Part shown: piece by piece, positions 20,677 through 29,272 of the stretch
Numbering within the stretch: the first letter of the stretch is position 1
Layout: the number at the start of each line of letters is the position of its first letter
From: Thermoplasmata archaeon
Lineage (GTDB): Archaea > Thermoplasmatota > Thermoplasmata > Thermoplasmatales > Thermoplasmataceae
DNA: 64,000 nt
Assembly (NCBI GenBank): GCA_021846395.1
Contig: JAJZXB010000004.1
Location: 1-64,000 of the forward strand
Direction: 5' to 3'
Made by a program: the position numbers and the translations under genes
The notes under the pieces: model-generated
Told to the model about the DNA's origin: nothing
What the model saw: the letters and a program-made list of their open reading frames with translations, nothing else
Databases searched by the model: none

Positions 20677-22695
20677 GTGCAACAATATTATTTAAGTACG
20701 AAATTCAAGGATTTATTGAACGAATACAAAAAAATAATATATCCCCTAAATAGATTAAGGTATATCATGATACAAAATTATATTTTAGACGAATTTAAGA
20801 ACAATAGAAAGTTGAAAGATATGGACAATTATGCAATTATGGATGCATGGGTAAGGGAATTCAATACTTCACTGGAAAGCAACAATTATTCATTGTTGGC
20901 GAATAGAATTGGGCATTTCATTGCTTTTCAAAACGGTGATATTCAATCAGAAAATTTCAGGAGAAACAGAACCGGTTTATGGTTTGGCTTAACGGGCTTG
21001 ATCCGTTATATAAAATTCTCCGTTGATGGCAAACCTTTAAAGGAAAACATACGCAAATACGTGAGAAAACCTGAATATATCTATAGGGAATTTGAAAATT
21101 TGGAAAGAATTGATTACATGCCATTAAATAAAAAAATCTTAAATATGGTATTCAATCCTGGAACAAAATTAAACCTTGATATTGAAATGAATTTAATTCA
21201 GTCAAAACCATGGCCTTCAGAGTTAAGCATATACCCGGAAATAAAAATAGAAAACAGCAGTATACATGTAAAGAGTGAGTTAATAAATTATTATATTTCA
21301 TTTTCAAATACAGAAGGTACAGATATAAATTACAGAAATGGCATTTTAAATATCTCCTTTGTCACGGACCATGCCTTTGAAATTCAAATATATGAAGAGA
21401 ATGAAATGGAAGAAGAAAATGACCTTGGCAATATCACATCATATTATGAGAATATTAATAATGTTTCAAAGCTTTCCAGCAGTTCATTTGAACTGGATAA
21501 GGCATTTTACTGGGCAAAACATGATCTGTCACAGTTCTATTTTGAATTAAATGATGATTTGAAGGGTTTTTATGCAGGATTTCCCTGTTTCTCATGGATA
21601 TTTGGAAGGGACAGTTGCTGGATATCCATAGCAACTTCCTATATTGGAATGTGGAGTGAAACAAAGAATAATCTCATAACACTTTTAAGGAACTCGATAA
21701 ATGGCCGAATACCCCATGAGCTAGCACTTACTGATTTCAAACAGAACTATGAAGTCAGTGGAATAGATGTGGATACAAAATATATGTCCATTGATAGTAC
21801 GCCAATGTGGGCTATTGCCAATAACACATATTCAAACATAAGTGACGATAGATCAATGAATGATAATTTGCCCAGTATGATGGAATTTATAAAGTCATGC
21901 GATATTGATGGGGATGGATTTATTGAAAATGATTTCTCAAGGGGCTTGATTGGCTGGCCGGAAACATGGGCAAAGGATAGAAATGGCAAATGCATTGAAA
22001 TAAATGCATGGCTCATGGAAATGGAAAGAATTATTTCTGGGAAAAATAAAATTGATAAGGATAAGATAGAAAAATTTATGAAATTATTTTATAGAGAAAA
22101 AGGTACATTTGTGGATTCCATATATGGTGGTTCATCCAGAATAATCAAAAGCCCATTACTCTGCATTCCGGGCATTTATTTCAAATCTGATAAAAATAAA
22201 AAAATTCTTAAGAACCTATTTCAGGATGACAGTATGACGCCCTGGGGTATTCGTTCCATGTCTATTAATGACCCGATGTATGATGGTAGCTATCACAAGG
22301 GCACGATATGGCCCCTTATGACTGGATGGTATGGACTGGCATGCTTTAATCATGATTTAATTGATGAGGGGCAATATTCAATTAATACCTTTATTAAAAA
22401 TGCTTTTTCAGCCAAAGATCCAGGCAGAATAAATGAGACTTATACCCCTGATGCCTATAATGAAAGTGGCCAGTTTGCTCAAGGATGGTCCATATCATTA
22501 TTCATACAGTTAATATTTGAGGGAATCTTAGGGTTTAGGGATGTGAATATTGAGAACATCAAAAAGTCTATTGGCGGTGCCCATAACAGAATAAATGGAA
22601 TGGTTGATTATATTGAAATCACCAATATGAAAATTGGTAAAACTTATGTTTCTGTTTATATAGATCGGGAAACAGAAAAAATAAAGATAGAATAA
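20677..22695 (+). CDS. Glycogen-debranching-enzyme-like glycoside hydrolase
   Basis: 672 aa. The C-terminal two-thirds is an alpha/alpha-barrel of the amylo-alpha-1,6-glucosidase type. Landmarks are WIFGRDSCW at residue about 309, IDSTPMW, DIDGDGF, GWPETW followed by INAWLME, and YHKGTIWPLMTGWY near residue 540. The N-terminal domain of about 270 residues is beta-rich. The enzyme probably removes glucose branches or hydrolyses glucan/oligosaccharide in the cytoplasm. It starts with GTG. It is convergent with a GH15 enzyme and close to a sugar importer, which supports a role in glucan or disaccharide use. Confidence 0.75.
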   Translation: MQQYYLSTKFKDLLNEYKKIIYPLNRLRYIMIQNYILDEFKNNRKLKDMDNYAIMDAWVREFNTSLESNNYSLLANRIGHFIAFQNGDIQSENFRRNRTGLWFGLTGLIRYIKFSVDGKPLKENIRKYVRKPEYIYREFENLERIDYMPLNKKILNMVFNPGTKLNLDIEMNLIQSKPWPSELSIYPEIKIENSSIHVKSELINYYISFSNTEGTDINYRNGILNISFVTDHAFEIQIYEENEMEEENDLGNITSYYENINNVSKLSSSSFELDKAFYWAKHDLSQFYFELNDDLKGFYAGFPCFSWIFGRDSCWISIATSYIGMWSETKNNLITLLRNSINGRIPHELALTDFKQNYEVSGIDVDTKYMSIDSTPMWAIANNTYSNISDDRSMNDNLPSMMEFIKSCDIDGDGFIENDFSRGLIGWPETWAKDRNGKCIEINAWLMEMERIISGKNKIDKDKIEKFMKLFYREKGTFVDSIYGGSSRIIKSPLLCIPGIYFKSDKNKKILKNLFQDDSMTPWGIRSMSINDPMYDGSYHKGTIWPLMTGWYGLACFNHDLIDEGQYSINTFIKNAFSAKDPGRINETYTPDAYNESGQFAQGWSISLFIQLIFEGILGFRDVNIENIKKSIGGAHNRINGMVDYIEITNMKIGKTYVSVYIDRETEKIKIE

Positions 22696-22829: not shown

Positions 22830-24680
22830 CTATCTTTTAGAAATATATTTTCCCATGGTATTGTTTTTTAAAGCCAAATTTAATTTTACAATTGTCTTTA
22901 AAATACCAAGATGTGTTAGCGCCTGAGGAAAATTCCCTATCATATCCTTTGTCTTTAAATCAATTTCCTCAGAAAATAACATCAAATGGTTTGATTTGGT
23001 TAGAATGGATTCCAGGACATTTTTTGCTTTACTTACTCTATTCATTGCAATTAAATCCTCTATATACCAGAACGACAGCATGAGAAAGGCATTATCCTCT
23101 CCTGTAAATCCATCATAATTATTGTATCTCTTAAATAAATAGTCATCTGTCATTAGGTCATGTTCTATTTTATCTATCGTACCTATTAATCGTTTATCAT
23201 CAATTGGTAAAAATTCCATTATGGGAATGCTTAACAGTGAGGCATCCACGCAATCAGCCCCATAATATTGAACAAATGAGTTAACATCCTTGTTAAATCC
23301 CTTTTCAAGTATATCATTCTTAATTTCATTTTCAATTTTTTTCCATTTTTTGTATGGAGCAGAATATCCAAGTGATTTTCCCATGGATATAGCCCTGTGG
23401 AATGCAAGCCATGAAGTAAGCTTTGAATAAACATAATGTCTTGGCTCTGTCCTGATTTCCCATATGCTTGAATCTGGGAGTTTCCATACTGATTCAAGCT
23501 TTTCAAGAACCTCCTCAATAAAATCCCAAAAATGAACGGTTATCATGCCACCAATTAAATTGAAATGGTAAATCATGTTTATTATTGAGCCATATTGATC
23601 AACCTGAAGTTGGGAAGAGGCTTTATTTCCAATTCGGACGGGACTGGAATTCATATATCCTGAATAATCAAGAATTTGCTCTTCGAGGGAATTTTTAGAA
23701 TTTATTTCGTATATTGTTTTAATTTCCTTATCCTTATGGATTTTTTCCATCAGATCATATAAAAATTGGGTAGCCTCATTTTTTAAACCAATCATAGAGA
23801 ATGCTTCAATAACATAGGCAGTATCCCTTATCCATGTAAAACGGTAATCCCAGTTTCTTTCACCACCAATGGATTCAGGGAGGCTTGATGTTGGAGCCGC
23901 AACCATCATACCTGTGGGTTCATAAAATAATCCCTTTAATATCAATGCAGACCTCAATACATATTTGTGATATATACCATGATAATTTATATTATTTGTC
24001 CATTTTTTCCAGTAATCTCTTGTCTCTTCAAGCCTCTCATATGATTTGTACTCCTTAATATCATTTAAATGGCTGATATCCGAGGAAATAACAATCCATT
24101 CAAAAACACCTTTGTTTAAAGGGATTTTATCATTATATATCATATTATCAGTTTTAATAAATTTGAAATTTGAGGATATACCAACGTTATTTTCTGTTCC
24201 GTGGAATATGTATCCAAATTTTTTATGTTCTATCGTTGGAATCTCTCTTCCAAAATTAAAATTTGGTTTAAATTCAATTTTAATTTGAATATCTTCCAAA
24301 GCTTCAATAAATCTATGTATTTCTGGATAATTTGCCTTTGAATACTCAGAAATTGGGAGAAAGTCAGTAATTCTCATTATAAGTTTATTTTTATTGTAAA
24401 ATTCAGTAATTAATATATTCGTGAATTCTTCATAATACTGATTCATTGTAACATTATCACACAGAGGTTTTACGGAAAAATATCCTCCTTTTTTTGAATC
24501 AAGAATAGAGTCAAAAACGGTCTTTGAATCAAAGTCTGGAAAACATGCCCAGTCCATAGTTCCATCCATACCAATCAATACTGCAGTTCTATTGTTAAAA
24601 ATTGCTCCGTGATTTGCGATCTTTATGTATTCATCCACTTTGAGATTTTGCTGATTTTCCAGTCCGTTAAAGATTGACAT
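22830..24680 (-). CDS. GH15 glucoamylase / trehalase
   Basis: 616 aa, the length of GH15 enzymes of Thermoplasmatales. The N-terminal beta domain starts with IANHGAIFNNRTAVLIGMDGTMDWACFPDFDS. The barrel carries PESIGGERNWDYRFTWIRDTAY (about residue 270-290) and GFTGEDNAFLMLSFW near the end, both family hallmarks. GH15 proteins of Thermoplasma have been reported as trehalases as well as glucoamylases, so substrate choice (trehalose or malto-oligosaccharide) is open. Divergent trehalose/maltose-type transporter genes follow. The start ATG is at 24678-24680. Confidence 0.85.
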   Translation of the reverse strand: MSIFNGLENQQNLKVDEYIKIANHGAIFNNRTAVLIGMDGTMDWACFPDFDSKTVFDSILDSKKGGYFSVKPLCDNVTMNQYYEEFTNILITEFYNKNKLIMRITDFLPISEYSKANYPEIHRFIEALEDIQIKIEFKPNFNFGREIPTIEHKKFGYIFHGTENNVGISSNFKFIKTDNMIYNDKIPLNKGVFEWIVISSDISHLNDIKEYKSYERLEETRDYWKKWTNNINYHGIYHKYVLRSALILKGLFYEPTGMMVAAPTSSLPESIGGERNWDYRFTWIRDTAYVIEAFSMIGLKNEATQFLYDLMEKIHKDKEIKTIYEINSKNSLEEQILDYSGYMNSSPVRIGNKASSQLQVDQYGSIINMIYHFNLIGGMITVHFWDFIEEVLEKLESVWKLPDSSIWEIRTEPRHYVYSKLTSWLAFHRAISMGKSLGYSAPYKKWKKIENEIKNDILEKGFNKDVNSFVQYYGADCVDASLLSIPIMEFLPIDDKRLIGTIDKIEHDLMTDDYLFKRYNNYDGFTGEDNAFLMLSFWYIEDLIAMNRVSKAKNVLESILTKSNHLMLFSEEIDLKTKDMIGNFPQALTHLGILKTIVKLNLALKNNTMGKYISKR

Positions 24681-25001: not shown

Positions 25002-26417
25002 TCAGTTCACCATTATGGGTTTATACATGCCTGCTTCGAAGTTATTTGCAACAGTTGTGTTATAATTTTTTACTAAATATCCATACATCTCTGAATTAAC
25101 AGCGTTCAACGTTGTGTGAATTGTTGTGTAATTCTGTGCATGGCCACTTACTATTATGGTTTCATATGCGCTGTCCATCAATGTTTGCCACTCACTTATC
25201 CACGATACAGGATCCCTAATGAAAACACCTCCCTTAAGTGCCTGTATAGATATATTTGTTATTGAATTATTTCCAGAACTGTTGTATTTCATTCCAAGAG
25301 CGGTAAGATTGACTGAACCTGGCCACTGGTAATCCATTACTGAATATTTGTTTGAAGCAAGACCCTTGTATGTTGCCCAGTATGATGTCTTGTATTCAGG
25401 GCTGAAGTATTTGCTTAAGTTATAAAGACAGTACATTCCCTGTATATCCCCTGTATTATTGAGCAATACTGGATTGCCGTTAAATTGTGTCAGCATCTGG
25501 TAAAGTTCTGTTGCTGTGCTTGCTCCACCATGTCCCTGTATATTTATCATTCCAACTCCATATTTCTTATCCAGGATCTTTGCATCTGCAAGCATCTGAT
25601 GGTATGTCTTAGGCAAACTTGTTATACCAGCATTCTTAAGAGCATTGTAATTTAGCCAGACAAGAGGTGTATTTATAATCTGGGTTATAAATGGAACATT
25701 CCCGCTAAATATTTTTGACTCGTAATGTGTAAGATTAACTATGGATGAGATGGTATTGCTAGGTGTAATTGTTGATATTGTTCCGTTAATGTTATTAAGA
25801 TATCCACCATATGATGCTCCTCCATATGCAAGTTCTCCAATATCAAGATTGTCTATGGTCATAACTATGGGTGTTGTTGTTTTAGCTGCTACATCTGCTT
25901 TAACGTGACTAACAATGCTAGTTGCGACTGTATTTGATGGGTTTATTTTGATATTTGGATACGCTTTTTCAAAATTGGATATTGCTGTTTTTGTAAAGGC
26001 AGTATAATCCGAAGGTGATATGCTTGTAAAGTAATCTATTGTTACGGTAGCATTCCCTTTATGATATATATTTGGAACAGCGTAGTTAGCTATGTTATGG
26101 CTGCTTATTGGTATGAAACCAGTTTTAGCACTGCATTGGAACTGTACCGGAGGCGATAACATGTATGCCATAAACTGTTCTTCCGCATATTTCTCTTGGG
26201 CTGTCAGTCCGTGTGTGTGTGCTACTGCAAGTACACAACCACCTAGAATATGATCTGAATTAAGGCCTGCTGGTCCTGGGTATGCTTTTAATTCAGGTTT
26301 TGCCGGTGGCTGGAGATTTGGTAGCTCCACATAAATTACTGTACTGATCACAATTACCACTGCAATCACTGCAATAATTTTTAGCAATTTTCCGTTGGTA
26401 GCGATTTTACTACTCAT
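25002..26417 (-). CDS. ABC sugar importer, extracellular binding protein with rearranged segment order
   Basis: 471 aa with a single N-terminal hydrophobic anchor (residues about 11-30) and a Pro-rich linker, so the protein is tethered outside the cell. The body is a SBP_bac_1-type solute-binding protein. The normal N-terminal part (VTIDYFTSISP...FEKAYPNIKIN) begins only at residue about 112. Residues about 45-105 hold AYPGPAGLNSDHILGGCVLA and later YMLSPPVQF...GFIPIS, which in relatives lies near the C-terminus. The C-terminal FIRDPVSWISEWQ segment is in place. The gene is divergent from its permease/ATPase operon, and the cargo is probably a malto- or trehalose-type sugar. Confidence 0.85.
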   Translation of the reverse strand: MSSKIATNGKLLKIIAVIAVVIVISTVIYVELPNLQPPAKPELKAYPGPAGLNSDHILGGCVLAVAHTHGLTAQEKYAEEQFMAYMLSPPVQFQCSAKTGFIPISSHNIANYAVPNIYHKGNATVTIDYFTSISPSDYTAFTKTAISNFEKAYPNIKINPSNTVATSIVSHVKADVAAKTTTPIVMTIDNLDIGELAYGGASYGGYLNNINGTISTITPSNTISSIVNLTHYESKIFSGNVPFITQIINTPLVWLNYNALKNAGITSLPKTYHQMLADAKILDKKYGVGMINIQGHGGASTATELYQMLTQFNGNPVLLNNTGDIQGMYCLYNLSKYFSPEYKTSYWATYKGLASNKYSVMDYQWPGSVNLTALGMKYNSSGNNSITNISIQALKGGVFIRDPVSWISEWQTLMDSAYETIIVSGHAQNYTTIHTTLNAVNSEMYGYLVKNYNTTVANNFEAGMYKPIMVN

Positions 26418-26434
26418 AAAATAAGTATGAGTAT

Positions 26435-26445
26435 GTTATATAAAT
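26435..26445 (-). promoter_or_regulatory. TATA box of the binding-protein gene
   Basis: On the minus strand ATTTATATAAC lies 18-28 nt before the ATG at 26417, correct for a leaderless archaeal promoter. Confidence 0.6.
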
Positions 26446-26480
26446 AATTTTTCTTTATGGCTAAAAAATAATACTAAATT

Positions 26481-26508
26481 ATGTAAAATTAATAAAATTA
26501 ATTTACAT
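26481..26508. promoter_or_regulatory. Inverted repeat in the divergent sugar-transport promoter region
   Basis: Left arm ATGTAAAATTAA (26481-26492), spacer TAAAA, right arm TTAATTTACAT (26498-26508). The arms match except for one extra A/T in the left arm. It is almost in the middle of the 201-bp gap and lies between the two TATA boxes, well placed to regulate both directions. Confidence 0.5.
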
Positions 26509-26586
26509 AAATCATTTAAATGTTTTTCGACAAAAATTAACCTCAATCTAATATTTTTTTTCGGATTTTAAGCACAATAAAAAGCT

Positions 26587-26594
26587 TTATATAT
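26587..26594 (+). promoter_or_regulatory. TATA box of the sugar permease operon
   Basis: TTTATATA centred about 29 nt before the ATG at 26619, consistent with a nearly leaderless transcript. Confidence 0.6.
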
Positions 26595-26618
26595 GGTATT
26601 TTTATAGGTGATTTCGTT

Positions 26619-27464
26619 ATGAAAGTCTTTAAAAATTACAGGAACTATAAATATATATTGTTCGTACTACCGGCCCTTCTATATGTATTTCTGCTTTCCT
26701 TTTTTCCTGCTGCATCTGTAGTCTATTTAAGCTTTAGTTCTAAAACAGGCTTCACATTAAGCAATTATAGAGGAATAGAGCAGGCCAATCTGGGTCTTGC
26801 AATAATAGATACACTTATTGTTAGCGTTGGTGCACTTTTTATTCAGTTGTTTTTTGCACTTTTGATAGCTAATATATTGATTAAATCCCTAAAGGGAAAT
26901 AAACTGTTTTCAACTATATTCATAATACCTTATGGCGTTTCCACAGTTGTTTCCGCCTTTATCTTTTCACTTATATTAAGTCCCATAGGTGGATTTGCCA
27001 ACTCAACCCTCGTATCCTTTGGATTAAGACCCGTTAACTGGTATTCATCGTCGTTATCAGAACTGGCAGTTGTTATGTTTTCAGATTTCTGGAAAAATAC
27101 CCCTATAGTTGCACTTATACTGTACGGAGGTTTATCAGGAATCCCTGAATCTTTAAATGAGGCAGCTAGCGTTGATGGAGCTAATTCATTCAGAAGATTC
27201 ATCCATATAACATTGCCAAATCTTGCCCCATATATAGCTATTGCATTGCTAATTAGAGGGGTTAGTGAGTTCAATATTTTTGCAATGCCTTTAGTGCTTA
27301 TAGGCTATTTTCCACCATTAATGAATACGCTTGTTTATGAGTTCTTTTCATCATCTGCAACAGAATCTTATTCCTATGCAGCTGCTACAATCTTGCTTGC
27401 AATAATTTTAGGATTTGCTATATTAATAATTAAAATCGGAGGTGTAAAAAAATATGAAGAATAA
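26619..27464 (+). CDS. ABC sugar permease, MalF-like
   Basis: 281-aa inner permease with six predicted helices. The first follows a short basic N-terminus. The conserved cytoplasmic EAA loop is present as LNEAASVDGANSFRRFIHITLPNLAP (about residues 182-207), which docks on the ATPase. It forms the importer with the MalG-like gene that starts 11 bp before its end (27454), the ATPase and the divergent binding protein. Substrate as for the binding protein, probably a disaccharide or oligosaccharide. Confidence 0.88.
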   Translation: MKVFKNYRNYKYILFVLPALLYVFLLSFFPAASVVYLSFSSKTGFTLSNYRGIEQANLGLAIIDTLIVSVGALFIQLFFALLIANILIKSLKGNKLFSTIFIIPYGVSTVVSAFIFSLILSPIGGFANSTLVSFGLRPVNWYSSSLSELAVVMFSDFWKNTPIVALILYGGLSGIPESLNEAASVDGANSFRRFIHITLPNLAPYIAIALLIRGVSEFNIFAMPLVLIGYFPPLMNTLVYEFFSSSATESYSYAAATILLAIILGFAILIIKIGGVKKYEE

Positions 27465-28269
27465 AGATACTGTTTCGTACATAATTGCGATTATATTGTC
27501 CATTGTGTTTATTTACCCACTTTATGTACTCATACTTGTGACGTTTGAACCGGTCTATTTGACATTTGGAAGAATTTATCCTTTTCAGCTTCCAATAATA
27601 CTAACTCTTTCCAACTTGATAAATTCATTCCATCAGGTGGGACTGATCGTTCCTGTTATAAGAAGTGTTGAAGTTGCGATGCTTGTATCGATAATAGCTG
27701 TGTTGCTTTCTATTCCTGCTGGATATGGATTGCAAAAATTAACTTCAAGAGTAACAAACAAAATAATATTGTTGATGTTTGTAGTTAACATGATGCCAGG
27801 CGTTGTGGTTGCAATACCAATATCTGTTTACTTTATAAAACTTGGACTGGAAAACAGCATTTTTGGAATAGCGTTCGCGCAAGAACTCGTTGTGCTTCCA
27901 TTATCTGTTTTTATCATGCTTGGTGGTTTTAGAGCCTTGCCAAAAGATATTGAAAATCAGGCACATGTGGATGGTGCAAGATTGCACTCAATTTTTTCAA
28001 AGGTATTGATACCCCTTGTTAAAGTTCCAATTTTGATTACATTTTTAATCGCATGGATGACTTCATGGGACGAGTTCACATACGCAGTAATAATATCGCC
28101 TATAAATCCAACTTTTCCGGTTAAGTTATATGATTACGTAAGTAGAGGGGAGCCATTTGTTGCCTCTTCATTTGCACTGCTCGTGACTGTTCCGGTTGTA
28201 GTGCTGGTTATAATATTACAAAAGTATCTAAAAGGAGAATATTTAAGTGGTGGTTTAAATGGAGTATAA
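27454..28269 (+). CDS. ABC sugar permease, MalG-like
   Basis: 271-aa second permease with six helices. Its EAA-type loop reads IENQAHVDGARLHSIFSKVLIPLVK (about residues 168-192). The C-terminal YLKGEYLSGGLNGV is the usual end of MalG-like proteins, where SGA/GGxNGxKG follows the last helix. It overlaps the first permease by 11 bp and the ATPase by 11 bp, so the three are one operon. Confidence 0.88.
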   Translation: MKNKDTVSYIIAIILSIVFIYPLYVLILVTFEPVYLTFGRIYPFQLPIILTLSNLINSFHQVGLIVPVIRSVEVAMLVSIIAVLLSIPAGYGLQKLTSRVTNKIILLMFVVNMMPGVVVAIPISVYFIKLGLENSIFGIAFAQELVVLPLSVFIMLGGFRALPKDIENQAHVDGARLHSIFSKVLIPLVKVPILITFLIAWMTSWDEFTYAVIISPINPTFPVKLYDYVSRGEPFVASSFALLVTVPVVVLVIILQKYLKGEYLSGGLNGV

Positions 28270-29272
28270 ACTTGAATTGAAAGAAATAACAAAAATATAC
28301 GGAGAAAAAAAGGTTTTGAATAACCTAAATTTGAACATCGTTTCAGGGGAATTTATGGTTATTCTTGGACCTTCAGGAGAGGGGAAATCTACGCTATTAA
28401 GAAGCATTGTAGGTATTGAGAATATTGATTCTGGGAAAATAATGGTCAATGGGGAGGATGTAACAAATAATCCTCCAAATAAAAGAAATATTGCAATGGT
28501 ATTTCAGAATTATGCATTATACCCAAATATGACGGTTTACAAAAATATCGCTTTTCCACTCAAAATGAGTAAAATGCCTTCTGAGCAAATAAAGGAAAAG
28601 GTGAATAAGGTTTCAGAACTCTTAAAAATCACAGATGTACTGGACAAAAATTCAACAAAATTAAGTGGAGGCCAGAAACAGAGAGTCGCCATAGCCAGGG
28701 CTCTTGTAAGAGAACCTAAACTGTTCCTGCTTGATGAACCTCTGAGTAATATAGATGCAAGAACAAGATATACTTCTAGACAGGAACTCAAAAGGCTTCA
28801 AAAAGAATTGAACCATACATTTGTTTATGTTACACATGACCAGTCTGAGGCTGCAAATATAGCAGATAGAGTTGCAGTTCTTCACAATGGAGTAATAGAA
28901 CAGATTGGTACATATGAGGAGATTTATAATAAACCTGAGACAACATGGGTTGGTGATTTTATAGGAACATACCCTATGAATTTCATTGATGGTTCCATTT
29001 ATGATTATAAGGATAAAAAGATAGGATTCAGGCCATCATGGGTTGATGAATCTTTAAATGATTTTGAGCTTGAAATTTCATTGATAGAAAAAATAGAAAA
29101 TAATTATTTCATACACTGCAATTTAGGTGAAAAAAATATAGTAATCAGATCCAACAAAAATTACAATATTGGAGAAAAGATAAAGGTTGGGCTATCAAAA
29201 TTTAATGTTTATAAAGATGAAAAGCTTGAATCTGTTATAGAGAATAAAAAAGAGAAAGCATCAGCTGATTAA
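28259..29272 (+). CDS. ABC sugar importer ATPase, MalK-like
   Basis: 337 aa. Walker A GPSGEGKS (residues about 37-44), Q-loop in MVFQNYALYPNMTV, signature LSGGQKQRVAIARAL, Walker B LFLLDEPLSNID, and the H-loop in YVTHDQSEA are all present. The C-terminal 100 residues form the regulatory OB-type domain (MIGFRPSW..), somewhat shorter than in bacterial MalK. It powers import by the neighbouring permeases. The start overlaps the MalG-like gene by 11 bp. Confidence 0.92.
   Translation: MEYKLELKEITKIYGEKKVLNNLNLNIVSGEFMVILGPSGEGKSTLLRSIVGIENIDSGKIMVNGEDVTNNPPNKRNIAMVFQNYALYPNMTVYKNIAFPLKMSKMPSEQIKEKVNKVSELLKITDVLDKNSTKLSGGQKQRVAIARALVREPKLFLLDEPLSNIDARTRYTSRQELKRLQKELNHTFVYVTHDQSEAANIADRVAVLHNGVIEQIGTYEEIYNKPETTWVGDFIGTYPMNFIDGSIYDYKDKKIGFRPSWVDESLNDFELEISLIEKIENNYFIHCNLGEKNIVIRSNKNYNIGEKIKVGLSKFNVYKDEKLESVIENKKEKASAD

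Follow-up and report, generated by a model that had tools for sequence, protein, structure and literature searches.

A solute-binding protein gene in the stretch of archaeal DNA analysed here (64,000 nucleotides, hereafter the window) encodes a protein whose conserved blocks stand in an unusual order. The protein reads anchor-B-A-C, whereas relatives with the usual SBP_bac_1 layout read anchor-A-B-C. Sequence comparisons indicate that this swap, which was found in one family of acid-loving archaea, is a real and probably a working natural rearrangement. The overall best explanation is a B-A-C protein that goes back to a single ancestral swap and has kept the ancestral fold, and we regard this explanation as likely. 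The protein is predicted to serve a CUT1-type (maltose/glucose-like) ABC importer as its membrane-tethered solute-binding protein. The segments of the protein and the adjacent importer genes are the following:

26325..26390 (-): N-terminal membrane anchor helix, residues ~10-31 (KLLKIIAVIAVVIVISTVIYVEL preceded by lysines)
26094..26294 (-): block B, residues ~42-108, moved to the N-terminus (profile matches, shuffles, 9xf5/9lff)
26058..26093 (-): new linker between blocks B and A, residues ~109-120 (between two profile matches)
25290..26057 (-): block A, residues ~121-376 (match to profile positions 49-304; homology up to LGM, residue 376)
25266..25289 (-): joint at the former site of block B, residues ~377-384 (A-to-C distance; joint sequences)
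25005..25265 (-): block C, residues ~385-471, C-terminal helices (GGVFIRDPVSWISEW...) (match to profile positions 387-473)
26418..26618 (no strand): divergent promoter region between binding protein and importer (TATA-like box; imperfect inverted repeat)
26619..27464 (+): ABC importer permease, MalF/GlcT-like (Pfam BPD_transp_1, E 3e-12)
27454..28269 (+): ABC importer permease, MalG/GlcU-like (Pfam BPD_transp_1, E 1.1e-10)
28259..29272 (+): ABC importer ATPase, MalK/UgpC-like (Pfam ABC_tran, E 1.3e-36)

Segment order in the binding protein

The binding-protein gene (25002-26417, minus strand) is a single intact reading frame of 471 codons (471 amino acids), as had been claimed in an earlier reading of the sequence alone. 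The Pfam model SBP_bac_1 (PF01547) matches with 38 bits at a cut-off of 26 (E 2.5e-9). The match covers only residues 137-371, which is expected if the order of the segments is disturbed and which illustrates how profile searches clip such proteins. When a profile built from eight canonical relatives is aligned to the window protein, the match breaks into three pieces whose order differs from that of the profile. Profile positions 315-373 fall on residues 43-104 (block B), positions 49-304 on residues 121-372 (block A, E 2.6e-61) and positions 387-473 on residues 385-470 (block C, E 6e-17). These matches bear out two statements of the sequence-only reading, namely that the motifs of block B lie at the N-terminal end and that the order is B-A-C instead of A-B-C. 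The reciprocal comparison, with a profile made from the swapped proteins, gave matches in the order A, B, C on canonical proteins. Moreover, a block-B profile scored 27.0 bits on residues 32-120 and 1.9 bits on residues 121-471 of the window protein, and the best of 1000 shuffles reached 7.8 bits.

At the N-terminus, the anchor and a short linker precede block B (ELKAYPGPAG... to GFIPISSH), and a second linker of some 12 residues leads from there into the usual first strand of block A. The anchor region was modelled as a helix comprising residues 5-31, in an AlphaFold model of low overall confidence. The landmarks of block B follow in the order LKAYPGPAG, HILGGCVLAV, a helix, SPPVQ and TGFIPIS, and the linker from B to A varies in length among the swapped relatives. 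Block A contains the normal first strand, the FEKAYPN helix, the first lobe, a crossing, most of the second lobe, YQWP and LGM. Its start had been placed at about residue 112 and has to be corrected to about residue 121, with the FEKAYPN helix at residues 149-155. In family f15, the canonical joint reads ...QWPYIYSDLLSLGMTNS, followed by block B from EIGVYPGPSG to about NAAAYNGL and then by NASTLKVYGPLEQAIQNPVFRPPVAW. The joint of the window protein, where B is missing, reads ...QWPGSVNLTALGMKYNSSGNNSITNISIQALKGGVFIRDPVSW; the homology extends up to LGM and resumes just past the missing block. The stretch that is left at the usual place of B runs from M376 (LGM) to about residue 385, which is a further correction to the sequence-only reading.

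Three binding proteins of known structure (9xf5, 9lff and 1eu8) are canonical in order. The swapped-family profile matches block A at 36-208 in 9xf5 and at 36-196 in 9lff, and block B at 310-376 and 317-376, respectively, i.e. after block A. By the established classification, SBP_bac_1 proteins belong to Type II / Cluster D. The window protein has all parts of such a protein and lacks their canonical A-B-C order; on its sequence, it is filed as a rearranged SBP_bac_1 variant and not as a regular member. A rotation of the whole chain, as in proteins of the TpMglB-2 kind ('Type Ic'), was not found either, and only the A-B part is rotated. The earlier statement that the protein is not a simple circular permutation is correct for the whole protein, but the A-B part taken by itself is circularly permuted, with block C fixed. 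The genome to which the window belongs carries a single copy of the swapped gene; a second copy was searched for in this genome and not found, and no relatives of the protein were detected among viral contigs.

Distribution and origin of the swapped order

Searches in the order and the class yielded 26 distinct full-length swapped proteins from 26 genomes, which represent ten genera of the family of the window (g1, g2, g4, g7, g10, g12, g13, g17, g18 and g19). Swapped-type fragments were also obtained from g3, g8 and others. It had been proposed to align relatives to see whether a lineage shares the order, and a lineage within this family indeed does. The 36 canonical proteins represent this same family, a further family of the order (f3) and two families of the class (f14 and f15), and the order read by the profile matched the label in every row of both sets. 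The distance between the end of block A and the start of block C is 22-25 residues in all swapped proteins vs 93-104 residues in all canonical proteins, and the two ranges are disjoint. As the short distance is common to all swapped proteins, block B must have been moved and not copied, in agreement with the earlier claim that the block is absent from its usual place. The presence of the block both at the N-terminus and at the usual place had been named as an observation that would speak against a swap, and a second block B occurs in none of the 26 swapped proteins. Intermediates with two B blocks (B-A-B-C or A-B-A-B-C) were found neither among the swapped nor among the canonical proteins.

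Three loci deserve a separate remark. One swapped-type gene (L014 and L021, G009:C8:85807-87215) is split into three frames in a genome that is 50% complete, which reflects either sequencing errors or a decaying gene. In the genome G018, a swapped binding protein and a close canonical one occur together (L008, L022), and each is located beside an importer of its own. Compared with the near-identical L112, the canonical protein L113 (G206:C20) has an open frame extended by about 100 N-terminal residues, and the extra length is probably an unused upstream frame.

A tree was built on blocks A and C only, leaving out the trait itself. In this tree, the swapped proteins form one side of a branch with a support of 100/100. 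When rooted on the distant canonical group, the swapped clade is nested among canonical proteins, with weak support for its sister group (53/17). Thus, the swap arose once from the A-B-C order. The same direction of change is suggested by the solved SBP_bac_1 proteins, which are also canonical in order. The tree of block B divides into the same two groups. Block B is 33-36% identical to the nearer canonical relatives and 24% identical to the distant canonical group, and the values for the nearer relatives are 35-48% for block C and 41-43% for block A. Since the identities of B are comparable to those of C and slightly lower than those of A, B comes from the same protein family.

The A-B-C order thus changed once to B-A-C, in an ancestor of a part of one archaeal family, and the new order was retained afterwards. 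The circular permutation of the A-B part with C fixed makes an ordinary genetic route available. Most likely, A-B would have been duplicated in tandem within the gene, and the first A and the last B would then have been lost; the gene may have left its place at the operon head in the same course of events.

The dN/dS values of the swapped proteins (pooled from four close pairs) are 0.16 for B, 0.14 for A and 0.34 for C, and those of the canonical proteins are lower (0.04 to 0.08). By these estimates, block B is under purifying selection in its new place. The mean identity within the swapped clade is 57% for B, 62% for A and 54% for C, and the motif YPGPxGPxNSxHLLGG is largely retained in both swapped and canonical proteins. 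Residue 61, which follows the conserved GG in block B, is C in most swapped proteins and H in L006; at this position, the canonical and some early-branching swapped proteins have D. It aligns to a tryptophan of 1eu8, which we take to be a sugar-contacting residue, and the sugar specificity may have shifted at residue 61.

Importer and predicted fold

All 36 canonical genes head an SBP-permease-permease operon, with the permease genes following immediately in the same direction. A related importer is in view at 19 of 21 swapped loci, and in these 19 cases the swapped gene is divergent (7), convergent (9) or downstream (3), and it leads the permease genes in none. As the swapped gene never leads the permease genes, it has also been displaced from the operon. 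A permease tree unites the importers that neighbour swapped genes in a single clade (SH-aLRT 100). The sequence-only reading had described a good promoter and a complete divergent importer in the window. A TATA-like box (TTTATATA) can be read by eye about 20-30 nt before the ATG, and two permeases and the ATPase are indeed present. The best NCBIfam matches of the permeases are GlcT and GlcU, each far below its cut-off, and that of the ATPase is UgpC with 359.6 bits, under the cut-off of 432. The same reading had suggested a folded and functional protein; good indirect support comes from the intact frames in 26 genomes, the purifying selection on block B and the regular association with a co-evolving importer.

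An imperfect inverted repeat lies between the two divergent promoters (26463-26487, TATGTAAA, and 26502-26526, TTTACATA); its arms are 72% complementary and 14 nt apart. The repeat could be a candidate operator for a sugar-responsive regulator, and it was not seen in the divergent relative L063. Beside the importer, a GH15-type protein is encoded (22830-24680, minus strand), which is closest to the archaeal trehalases TreH1 (404.6 bits) and TreH2 (376.2 bits) and scores far below their cut-offs of 820 and 1000. This neighbour recurs near both swapped and canonical importers. Next to the GH15 gene lies a gene for a debranching-like protein of the GDE_C type (20677-22695, plus strand), for which NCBIfam gave no match. 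The GH15 and debranching-enzyme type neighbours hint at alpha-glucosides or trehalose as putative substrates.

In maltose-binding protein, the N-lobe comprises residues 1-109 and 264-309 and the C-lobe residues 114-258 and 316-370; the lobe boundaries of the window protein were taken from this homology. The C-lobe strand GVTVLPTF of maltose-binding protein would be the counterpart of the start of block B. Block A would provide most of the C-lobe, the first piece of the N-lobe and the first crossing between the two. Block B would begin with the C-lobe strand and then cross to the N-lobe and supply its second piece, and block C would cross back to the C-lobe. By folding back into its ancestral place, block B would preserve the three-dimensional fold and the ligand cleft of maltose-binding protein. 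Each new joint would be located within one lobe: the B-to-A joint would connect two stretches of the N-lobe and the A-to-C joint two stretches of the C-lobe, so that both could be short and local. By analogy, the N-lobe should become contiguous, the hinge crossings should decrease from three to two, and the anchor should be attached to the other lobe, with a C-lobe strand following it rather than the first strand of the N-lobe. The full-length AlphaFold model has a mean pLDDT of 39.5. For an N-lobe construct (residues 40-262), a mean pLDDT of 47.2 and a pTM of 0.52 were obtained. This model contains, with local confidence of about 50 to 86, a strand, two helices, beta-1, alpha-1 and beta-2, which is the order expected for an N-lobe made of B and A. 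A Foldseek search with the same model retrieved a phosphate-binding protein as the best match (E 0.05, TM-score 0.31) and nothing at E < 0.001. At this quality, neither model confirms a two-lobed Venus-flytrap fold with a ligand cleft.

Other explanations of the swapped order have to be weighed. The swap could have occurred as described, but via recombination between two different binding-protein genes. Several genomes have more than one related importer (G018, G030), and the location of the swapped gene off the operon head suggests a larger rearrangement. However, block B, with 71 columns, is not clearly closer than A and C to any other sampled group, and we consider this route possible but rather doubtful. 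It is unlikely that block B docks into a neighbouring molecule to form a segment-swapped dimer or a higher assembly, of which the new order would be a by-product or the cause. Such an arrangement would be in line with the linker of about a dozen residues between B and A and with an engineered lobe of ribose-binding protein that dimerised by segment swapping (PMC9815098), but the joints appear to lie within single lobes, so that B reaches its own site without a swap between molecules.

The N-terminal block could also be an independent extra domain that resembles B in a non-canonical binding protein or a sensor that has lost the true B. AlphaFold assigns moderate local confidence to B and does not pack it reliably on A, as would be expected of such a domain. 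However, the match to the canonical block reaches E values down to 1.4e-17 and extends over most of B in relatives, and the trees of B and of A plus C show the same split into two groups. In addition, the internal block is missing from every swapped protein, as expected of a move, and B as an unrelated domain was ruled out by the profile scores and the shuffles. We therefore regard an extra domain as very improbable. There is next to no chance that errors in the assembly or binning of metagenome contigs produced the order. Draft assemblies are common among the genomes, and some are of low completeness, but the same order, with joints at the same positions, recurs in 26 genomes from ten genera, and two of these genomes (G014 and G096) are single contigs; an assembly artefact was ruled out on these grounds.

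As to why the single ancestral swap was retained, the sequence-only reading had suggested an adaptation that changes the attachment of the membrane anchor. The map drawn by homology would indeed place the anchor beside a different lobe, but anchoring alone does not explain the swap, because the canonical relatives are also anchored by an N-terminal helix. Tentatively, the swap might have changed the coupling of cleft closing and importer docking, besides yielding a contiguous lobe, two crossings and a moved anchor, so that it was kept by selection and co-evolved with the permease clade; this idea is more speculative than the swap itself.

Comparison with known systems

In the open-access literature, no published work on this protein group was found. 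Documented cases of natural proteins whose reordering goes further than a circular permutation are rare. Non-cyclic permutations have been little studied; the cases include the engineered Arc repressor and one proposed natural case with 42 aligned residues, and the natural origin of such permutations has been posed as a question (PMC2096629). As in these cases, the blocks of the window protein are reordered beyond a rotation of the chain. Unlike these cases, the homology is clear in the sequence, the origin lies on one known branch and both orders occur within one archaeal class and even in one genome (G018). Moreover, the partner permeases of both orders are available for comparison. The system makes it possible to ask directly whether three hinge crossings are necessary in a binding protein. 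According to an RNA paper, numerous protein domains occur in rearranged forms (PMC10085705), and for this reason we do not claim a first case.

The canonical relatives in the class (L083, L013, L112 and others) have the same blocks A, B and C, the same type of anchor and the same kind of importer. However, they have the order A-B-C and their gene heads the operon, neither of which applies to the window gene. The trehalose/maltose-binding protein TMBP (PDB 1eu8) and 9xf5 are likewise homologous over A, B and C and have the canonical order. In the ribose-binding protein constructs RBP-CPN and RBP-CPC, a lobe was made contiguous by rejoining its two pieces, as here (PMC9815098). These constructs are single lobes made in the laboratory, whereas the window protein is a whole natural protein in which the two pieces of the N-lobe are reversed.

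The nearest precedent is the group of TpMglB-2 (Tp0684) from Treponema pallidum, a circularly permuted binding protein of Type I / Cluster B, in which the first strands have moved to the C-terminus and a fourth hinge crossing has been gained (PMC4990184). The permuted part shows only 13% identity, binding was kept after the permutation, and the authors suggested that the permutation relates to membrane anchoring (PMC4990184). The archaeal swap also permits a test of this idea, which ties the change in topology to the anchor. In both cases, the segments of a tethered sugar-binding protein that serves an ABC importer have been reordered in nature, and relatives share the new order. However, TpMglB-2 is bacterial and of Type I, whereas the window protein is archaeal and of the SBP_bac_1 type (Type II / Cluster D). 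Furthermore, TpMglB-2 gained a crossing, whereas the window protein keeps its C-terminal block in place and should lose one, and its canonical sister groups, unlike those of TpMglB-2, are known and can be aligned by sequence.
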